Positions 267-4,199 of a DNA stretch of 64,000 nt are shown here, one piece after another; the first letter of the stretch is position 1, and each line of letters opens with the position of its first letter. Under the pieces are notes generated by a model. That model was not told where the DNA came from. It saw only the letters and a program-made list of their open reading frames with translations, and made no database searches. The stretch comes from Acidiferrimicrobium sp. IK. Its GTDB lineage: Bacteria > Actinomycetota > Acidimicrobiia > Acidimicrobiales > Palsa-688. The position numbers and the translations under genes were made by a program. The stretch lies in assembly GCF_025499425.1 (NCBI RefSeq), contig NZ_JAIMCB010000017.1:1-64000 (forward strand), read 5' to 3'.

Positions 267-788
267 TCACACCCGGCTGACGGTCACTTCGTGCTTGGCG
301 TGGCGGGCCAAGGCGCTGAGGTCACCTGGATCGCCGGTGAGGATGGTGGCCCCACCGGCGCCGTCGGCTACCGCAACGACGATGGCATCCACACCCGAAG
401 GGATCCGTCGGCCGGTGACTTGCGACCGCAGGACGGCTGCGGCTCTGGCCACAAGCTCGTCCACGGGCCGCACGTCGCACGCTCGAAGAAGCCGGTTCTC
501 GGGGTAGTCGCGCCGGTGGTCGCCGGTCAGCGCTCCGGTGAGGACGACGCAGGGCAGGCCAAGGGCTTGATCGGCCCAAGTCCGAGCTTCGGCTCGGTCC
601 TCCTCGGTGACCGGGCCGAGTTCGGCGTCGAGCTCGGCGAGGTAGGTGTCGAGCTCGGCGATCTTGCTCAGACGGTCCAGCTCGGCCGCCACGGCGCGTT
701 GAGCAACCTGTGACAGGTTCAACCGGGCGTTGCGGGCTTGGATGACGAGTTCGTCGGGCATCGTGATGTTGACCCTCGCCATGCGCAT
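267..788 (-). CDS. Antitoxin fused to a truncated PIN (VapC-like) toxin; likely relic
   Basis: The first about 75 residues look like a ribbon-helix-helix antitoxin of the CcdA/VapB type: a short beta strand (ARVNITMPDELV) followed by two helices and an acidic tail. The remainder matches only the second half of a PIN ribonuclease domain: the VDA segment and the TGDPGDL segment carry the two C-terminal metal-binding Asp residues. The N-terminal Asp and the middle Glu of the PIN active site are absent, although a short VVLTGAL stretch may be the remnant of the usual VLDTGAL start. The result is one reading frame in which a vapB gene and a vapC gene with internal deletion have been joined. The toxin half should be inactive (inference). 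Start: Met at 788 or 782 fits the antitoxin family; an in-frame ATG at 839 would add an unrelated leader. No clear Shine-Dalgarno sequence precedes any of them. Confidence 0.6.
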   Translation of the reverse strand: MRMARVNITMPDELVIQARNARLNLSQVAQRAVAAELDRLSKIAELDTYLAELDAELGPVTEEDRAEARTWADQALGLPCVVLTGALTGDHRRDYPENRLLRACDVRPVDELVARAAAVLRSQVTGRRIPSGVDAIVVAVADGAGGATILTGDPGDLSALARHAKHEVTVSRV

Positions 789-935
789 GGTATACGCATT
801 GGCGGCGGCGGGGGACTGTCGCTTCGTCGAGTCCGCCATCGGCGACGCGCCGTGAAATGTTCACTGCTCGGGCCTCTGGCCGCGCTGGTAGCGTGCGAGC
901 GCCTGGCCGACGACGGTAGGTCTCGTACGGGCAGA

Positions 936-2517: not shown

Positions 2518-3132
2518 TCAGTGGGGGCCGAACCCGAACGGGCGCCCGCGGTCCGGCGGCGTCCCCCGCCCGGCCCCGAGGATGTCGTGGACCAGGCCGT
2601 AGGCGAGCGCCTGCTCTGCGTCGAGCCAACGGCCGGCCGAGATGTCCGCCTCGACGTGCTCGAGGGGTCGGCCGGTGGCAGTAGAGAGGACACCGGCCAG
2701 GCGATCGAGCTCGATCTGACGCTGGCGGGACCACGCCGAGAGCTCGCCGGCCGTCCCCGACGCCGACGACGACGGCTCGCTCAGGTGGAAGCTGGCGTGG
2801 CGTGATGCGCTCCGGTGCTCTGCGGCGGCGAGCACCGCAACGGCGGAGCCCTCGACCCGCCCGACGCAGGCGGCCCGCACCGGCACTCCCATCAACCCGA
2901 TCGTGTCGACCAGGGTCAAGGCGGCGCGCAGCGGCCCTCCCGGGCTGTCGATCTGCATCTGCACGGCGCTGTCGCCGGTGGCGTCAAGCAGCATCAGCTC
3001 AGCGGCCACCCGGCTGGCGGCCTCGTCGTCGAGCGGTCCCCGCAGGACCACCTGGCGCTGGTTGAGCAGCTGGCCGCGTAGCCACGCCTCCATCCCGTCC
3101 CCCACATCGCGGTCGTCGCCAGGAACGGTCAT
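2518..3132 (-). CDS. ClpP-like protease homologue lacking the catalytic Asp
   Basis: 204 residues with the ClpP/crotonase fold: the IDSPGG motif at residues 61-66, a nucleophile-position Ser96 in GRVEGSAVAV, and His116 in ASFHLSEP. Aligned with the genuine ClpP encoded at 3549-4199, its catalytic Asp (in the DRDYF segment there) falls on Gly167 (SAGRW), so the triad is incomplete and the activity is doubtful. The C-terminal tail (residues 188-204) is short and Gly/Pro-rich. Start: the ATG at 3132 lies 40 nt after the stop of the upstream regulator gene. It is probably co-transcribed with that XRE gene. It may be a ClpR-like inactive subunit that modifies ClpP assembly, or a stand-alone relative; both are inference. 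Confidence 0.75.
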   Translation of the reverse strand: MTVPGDDRDVGDGMEAWLRGQLLNQRQVVLRGPLDDEAASRVAAELMLLDATGDSAVQMQIDSPGGPLRAALTLVDTIGLMGVPVRAACVGRVEGSAVAVLAAAEHRSASRHASFHLSEPSSSASGTAGELSAWSRQRQIELDRLAGVLSTATGRPLEHVEADISAGRWLDAEQALAYGLVHDILGAGRGTPPDRGRPFGFGPH

Positions 3133-3172
3133 CGTGCCGGCCTCCCGCGCCCCACGTTCACCCGTCGACTGC

Positions 3173-3460
3173 TCAGCTGTCGTGCAGCCGCCAGTCCAGG
3201 CGCTGACCGAGCGCCGCGGCGTAGCGCTCGAGGGTGGAGAGCCGCACATCGGCGTCGCCCGACTCGAGACGGGCTACCGCCGACTGAGAGGTGCCCATCC
3301 TGGCCGCCACCTGGGTCTGCGACAGGCCCAACGCAGTGCGCTGCGCGACCAGCAGCTCGGTGAGGACGTGACGGCGCTCGGCCATCTCCCGGAACCCCGG
3401 GAAGACCGTCTCGTGGCGTCGCTCGTTGACCTGCGCTTCGTTCGGTTCCGACTCCTGCAT
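3173..3460 (-). CDS. XRE-family transcriptional regulator
   Basis: 95 residues. The C-terminal two thirds are a helix-turn-helix of the Cro/C1 type: LGLSQTQVAARMGTSQSAVA holds the recognition helix, followed by LESGDADVRLSTLERYAAALG. The short N-terminal arm (EFRE/ERRH region) is typical of small stand-alone XRE proteins and of HigA-like antitoxins. No toxin gene lies beside it; the downstream partner is the ClpP-like gene. Divergent clpP starts 88 bp away, and a perfect palindrome sits between them, so this protein probably controls both directions (inference). Confidence 0.8.
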   Translation of the reverse strand: MQESEPNEAQVNERRHETVFPGFREMAERRHVLTELLVAQRTALGLSQTQVAARMGTSQSAVARLESGDADVRLSTLERYAAALGQRLDWRLHDS

Positions 3461-3506
3461 TCCTCGCTCGACCCGTTCCCTTCACCGCTCGAACCCTACC
3501 CGGCCA

Positions 3507-3522
3507 ATAGCGTTGGCGCTAT
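3507..3522. promoter_or_regulatory. Palindromic operator candidate between XRE gene and clpP
   Basis: ATAGCG-TTGG-CGCTAT is a perfect 6-bp inverted repeat with 4-bp spacer in the 88-bp divergent intergenic region, 27 bp before the clpP start. The size and symmetry suit a dimeric XRE repressor. A second AT-rich dyad (CGATATC) follows at about 3532-3539. Confidence 0.5.
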
Positions 3523-3548
3523 CTCAAACTCGCGATATCATTCCAGCT

Positions 3549-4199
3549 ATGTCAGTTATCCCGACCGTTGTCGACCAGTCCGCCCGCGGCGACCGCGCCT
3601 TTGACATCTACTCCCTGCTCCTGAAGGAGCGCATCGTGTTCCTCGGGCAGGAGGTGGACGACCAGATCGCCAACCTGCTCGTCGCCGAGATTCTCTATCT
3701 CGACGCCCACGACCCCGACCGGGAGATCTTCCTATACATCAACTCGCCGGGGGGCCAGGCCTACGCCGGCATGGCCATATACGACGTCATGCAGCATGTC
3801 CGGGCCCCGGTCTCCACCGTCTGCATCGGCATGGGCATGTCGGCGGCCGCGATGATCCTCTGCGGCGGAGCCAGCGGTCGGCGGCTGGCCACGCCCAACG
3901 CCAGGGTAATGATCCACCAAGGCTCAGCGGGGACCCGAGGGGCCCCGCGCGACATGGAGATCCACCTGCGGGAGGTACTGGCCACCACCAAGCGCATGGC
4001 CCAGATCATCTCCTTCCACACCGGGCGTCCACTGGAGCAGGTCGAGCGCGACATCGACCGGGACTACTTCATGACCGCGGATGAGGCCAAGGAGTACGGG
4101 ATGATCGACGAGGTCCTCACCCCGCATCGCGGCATCTCGGCCGAGCTGCTGGCGTTGGCCGACGCGGCGGCGGCTGCGGAGGTCGCCGCGACCGCCTGA
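3549..4199 (+). CDS. clpP: ATP-dependent Clp protease proteolytic subunit
   Basis: 216 residues, the usual ClpP length with an extended Ala-rich C-terminus. It carries INSPGG (64-69), the nucleophile Ser98 in GMGMSAAAMIL, His123 in ARVMIHQG and Asp172 in DIDRDYF, so the serine protease triad is complete. ClpP forms a tetradecameric chamber that degrades substrates delivered by ClpX/ClpC ATPases. No clpX or second canonical clpP adjoins it; actinobacteria usually need two ClpP paralogues, so another copy is expected elsewhere. The start at 3549 matches the normal mature N-terminus; longer in-frame starts would run into the regulator's promoter region. Confidence 0.93.
   Translation: MSVIPTVVDQSARGDRAFDIYSLLLKERIVFLGQEVDDQIANLLVAEILYLDAHDPDREIFLYINSPGGQAYAGMAIYDVMQHVRAPVSTVCIGMGMSAAAMILCGGASGRRLATPNARVMIHQGSAGTRGAPRDMEIHLREVLATTKRMAQIISFHTGRPLEQVERDIDRDYFMTADEAKEYGMIDEVLTPHRGISAELLALADAAAAAEVAATA

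Follow-up and report, generated by a model that had tools for sequence, protein, structure and literature searches.

ClpR, a subunit of the ClpP fold that lacks the catalytic triad and occurs together with active ClpP, is known from cyanobacteria, plastids and apicoplasts, and in cyanobacteria and plastids it forms mixed cores with ClpP (PMC7966870, PMC6508832). Among actinobacteria, Streptomyces has an accessory ClpP pair, clpP3-clpP4, with a local regulator, PopR, beside housekeeping ClpP1P2; PopR is described as an activator and a paralogue of ClgR, and ClpP3P4 as a working back-up core (PMC9765437, PMC12607617). Listeria monocytogenes ClpP1, one subunit of a mixed core, carries a non-canonical triad with Asn at position 172 (PMC9765437). 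On the regulatory side, HigBA systems with a Gp49-type HigB toxin have a related XRE protein and, at some loci, the same operator sequence as described below.

The locus reported here, known from sequences alone, pairs a ClpP-fold subunit without the triad with an active ClpP, as in ClpR systems, but it belongs to an actinobacterial lineage and has a divergent gene, a dedicated XRE repressor and an extra clpP. Compared with Streptomyces clpP3P4/PopR, where both ClpP paralogues are catalytically competent (PMC9765437), one subunit is without the triad and the regulator is HigA-like. While Listeria ClpP1 differs at a single residue and is active within its mixed core, all three catalytic residues are gone here. 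Unlike HigBA, the module has no toxin gene, and its XRE protein is flanked by the clpP-like gene and clpP and paired with a ClpP-fold protein. We found no report of a triad-less ClpP in actinobacteria in the open-access papers covered. Triad-less ClpP as such is known as ClpR; the apparent novelty lies in its occurrence in an actinobacterial lineage, with a dedicated active partner and a cassette under a HigA-type repressor.

The module lies within a 64,000-nucleotide stretch of Acidiferrimicrobium sp. IK, which we call the window (Table 1). The first-pass annotation had described a ClpP homologue, an XRE gene 40 nt away and a clpP facing them, and all three are where it placed them; the 40-nt gap separates the upstream xre from the clpP-like gene. 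Two neighbouring features were observed in passing. A histidine phosphatase family gene (PF00300; 1783-2481, + strand) is convergent with the clpP-like gene, with 37 nt between their ends. Further off, the frame at 267-839 (- strand) begins like a CcdA-like antitoxin (PF07362, barely above cut-off) and its tail resembles, by eye, the end of a PIN-domain toxin, so that from its sequence it is perhaps a collapsed toxin-antitoxin pair.

Table 1. Features of the clpP / xre / clpP-like module, in positions of the window
Feature	Position	Strand	Basis or remark
ClpP-fold protein without catalytic residues, 204 aa; Gly95/Ser118/Gly167 at the Ser-His-Asp positions	2518-3132	-	Alignment, Pfam, AlphaFold2 model
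XRE (HTH_3) regulator, 95 aa, HigA-like lineage	3173-3460	-	Pfam; same-layout relatives 67-78% identical
Perfect dyad ATAGCG-N4-CGCTAT	3507-3522	.	Overlaps operator by 3 bases; unconserved
Promoter-like site of clpP, TTGGCG-17-TATCAT	3513-3541	+	Consensus match only
Conserved operator TATCTC-N6-GAGATA; window copy TATCTCAAACTCGCGATA, 1 mismatch	3520-3537	.	Conservation across loci
Active ClpP paralogue, dedicated, Ser98-His123-Asp172	3549-4199	+ (divergent)	Alignment, Pfam; separate clade, support 100

The ClpP-like protein belongs to the ClpP fold family (PF00574, 101.5 bits against a Pfam cut-off of 20.2) and is devoid of the whole catalytic triad. In the register of E. coli ClpP and of solved ClpP structures, Gly95 occupies the nucleophile position and Ser118 that of the His, and Gly167 aligns with Asp172 of the divergent clpP product. 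The first reading of the sequence, that the Asp is lost with Ser and His retained, thus holds for Gly167 and fails for the other two residues. Ser96 and His116 are nearby but out of register, at +1 and -2 of the catalytic positions. Searches at the levels of class, order and phylum yielded 33 alignable relatives (alignment A1), all with Gly at the nucleophile position and none with His at the second, where Arg (15), Ser (8), Cys (4) and other residues occur; the Asp position holds Gly in 30, Arg in two and Ala in one. The invariant Gly, together with the free variation of the Ser96 and His116 positions, confirms the register, and we rejected these two residues as a catalytic pair. None of the 33, nor either of two further relatives without a linked XRE gene (L011 and L101), has the Ser-His-Asp triad of an active peptidase. 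The window protein, like ClpR, is a ClpP homologue without catalytic triad; we refer to it and its relatives as dead subunits.

A second, different ClpP pair was seen at four loci (L024, L037, L038 and L039), in the order of the module and in named Acidimicrobiales. One member of this pair retains Ser, and His in three of the four, with Ala at the catalytic Asp, and at L038 and L039 there is also an XRE of weak similarity in the vicinity. These proteins come nearer than the window protein to the case of only Asp being lost.

An AlphaFold2 monomer model of the dead subunit, built from alignment A1 (mean pLDDT 91.9), has the fold of a ClpP monomer, superposing on M. tuberculosis ClpP1 with a Z score of 27.6 and 1.7 Å over 175 residues, and on ClpP structures generally with Z scores of 26-27. 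The N-terminal gating segment that is conserved in the partner ClpPs is unrecognisable in the dead subunit. Among the ATPase docking positions, as generally assigned in E. coli ClpP, several are polar in the dead subunit, and position 60 is hydrophobic in none; position 62 is Tyr in 27/27 active partners, compared with 5/29 dead subunits, which mostly have Arg, His or Gln. Two ring-contact residues of active ClpPs, Asp/Glu169 and the sensor Arg170, are also lost, a change that could weaken normal ring pairing and counts against the mixed core considered below.

The triad of the divergent partner is complete, and Ser-His-Asp is kept in every linked clpP that reaches these positions. Although the earlier description of a gene facing 'true' clpP is correct as to the divergence, this gene is an extra paralogue: in a quick tree the linked clpP genes form a single clade, with support of 100, apart from the housekeeping ClpPs, and two further ClpP genes, both with full triad, lie on another contig of the same genome. 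A scan of a set of genome contigs returned ordinary ClpPs only. The dead subunits of the order likewise form one clade; four from another family, also adjacent to an XRE gene, group with the unlinked L011 and L101, in a part of the tree with long branches. Irrespective of this tree, which contains no cyanobacterial or plastid ClpR sequence, the dead subunit appears to be a counterpart of ClpR that may have arisen separately.

The gene set is conserved. Within the order, the XRE gene occurs in 37/397 genomes and the linked clpP clade in 31/397, and every one of the latter has the XRE, 30 being listed directly and the 31st (G662) showing the tail of an XRE gene at a contig end (hypergeometric P of 3e-37 for 30/31). 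The contiguous clpP / xre / clpP-like layout is found in 30 genomes, which represent some 12 families within the order. Distances between dead and active subunits are correlated (r of 0.70; partial r of 0.54 given XRE), these correlations, like that of co-occurrence, including shared ancestry. The proposal that the module is self-contained and includes a pseudoprotease subunit is borne out, and more strongly than it was first put, by this layout, by the absence of the entire triad and by the fixation of its loss in the 33 relatives. Comparison of 11 loci with the window revealed no further gene conserved around the module, save one cluster in three. Carriage on a mobile element was considered and discarded, as plasmid and phage records give no relative closer than ordinary ClpP.

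The regulator has an XRE domain of the HigA kind (HTH_3, 51 bits), and its best PDB match, weak and partial, is HigA3 (E of 2e-7). Its closest relatives outside the module adjoin Gp49/HigB-type toxin genes (PF05973); these are L042, L047, L048, L049, L148, L149 and L151, with Pfam confirmation of the toxin gene limited to L042 and L048. Four of them (L042, L148, L149 and L151) have TATCTC-N6-GAGATA at 0-1 mismatches. As the nearest outside relatives adjoin HigB toxins, some with the same operator, a HigBA-like antitoxin is the probable source of the XRE.

This operator is present at up to 2 mismatches in 25/30 loci, where shuffles average 4.1-5.1 mismatches; the motif was derived from the same loci, so that the counts are descriptive, and it is loci added afterwards that lend independent support. 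In G655 the split clpP retains a copy at 1 mismatch. No site in the genome matches better than the window copy, and one other equals it at 1 mismatch; because sites with no more than 2 mismatches number 22, much as in a reversed control (18), we claim no wider regulon. The perfect dyad which had been noticed between the genes does exist, with a chance expectation of 0.01 per window, but we rejected it as the operator: it is free of mismatches only in the window, has one in a single relative and 2-5 in the other 28 loci, and shares three bases with the conserved motif. The promoter-like match is the sole one in the region (0.1 expected in shuffles). The operator sits in the spacer between its -35 and -10 elements, a geometry that suggests repression by XRE, and the start codon of clpP lies 8 nt past the -10, for which reason the clpP mRNA may be leaderless.

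We consider it about an even chance that the locus encodes an accessory Clp core, made of one active and one dead, ClpR-like subunit, under a local repressor and distinct from the two housekeeping ClpPs. This reading is favoured by the strict tie of the dead subunit to a dedicated active paralogue, by their correlated divergence and by the precedent of ClpR. The dead subunit would most likely co-assemble with the active one and set the number of active sites. Unfoldases dock in hydrophobic clefts of the apical ClpP face (PMC9035409), and alternatively the dead subunit may close one face, so that an unfoldase would dock only on the active ring. A role in tuning ClpP would be plausible. We infer that XRE, as a HigA-type repressor, binds between the -35 and -10 of clpP and near its own start, and that neither arm would then be expressed before its removal, for which proteolysis is one possible route.

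A serious rival arises from xre/clpP-like pairs that have no linked clpP nearby, in G718, in G792 and in four genomes from a different family; given these pairs, the dead subunit may act with a partner other than clpP, possibly with XRE itself. The dead ClpP would then be mainly a partner or sensor of XRE that binds either the repressor or some peptide ligand, thereby switching DNA binding, with clpP as the output. The 4-nt start/stop overlap of xre with the clpP-like gene in 20/32 loci suggests coupled translation, and linked clpP is never found without XRE. However, in a natural split of the module in G728 (L102 and L143), xre is on one contig while clpP and the dead subunit are still divergent on another, separated by a perfect operator, the distant xre having a perfect copy of its own. 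In addition, distances of the dead subunit correlate better with those of clpP than with those of xre, and L011 and L101 are triad-less with no XRE nearby. We regard a function mainly with XRE as possible, if on the unlikely side. Its specific form, in which the dead ClpP senses by binding XRE or a Clp-made peptide and so switches expression of the accessory ClpP, is put forward tentatively and appears rather unlikely; if true, a protease fold would have come to act as the transcriptional switch of its own paralogue.

The retained ClpP fold, and the absence of a linked clpP beside the dead subunit in some genomes, would also fit a role as inhibitor or decoy, the dead subunit poisoning mixed rings of housekeeping ClpP1/P2 upon induction of the module. 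This we consider improbable, since a dedicated active paralogue, which accompanies the dead subunit in most genomes, would be superfluous for inhibiting the housekeeping enzyme. That the ClpP-like protein has replaced a HigB toxin in a toxin-antitoxin-like unit is very improbable in spite of the HigA3 match, the toxin-linked relatives of the XRE and the operator shared with some of them, as the partner has a ClpP fold with nothing toxin-like about it, and an antitoxin origin does not imply a present-day toxin. Finally, the loss of all catalytic residues and a faster evolution than that of the active partner (mean identity of 0.40 for the dead subunit vs 0.74) might be taken for a clpP duplicate in decay. 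This is hardly credible given the open frame in 33 relatives, with Gly at the nucleophile position throughout, and dN/dS values of 0.08-0.39 among closely related pairs, which indicate that the dead subunit is maintained and is no decaying pseudogene.

Descriptions of dead ClpP subunits concern the lineage of cyanobacteria and plastids. The actinobacterial case adds to them a cassette of 1.7 kb, a small testable system for the role of non-catalytic subunits in Clp cores.
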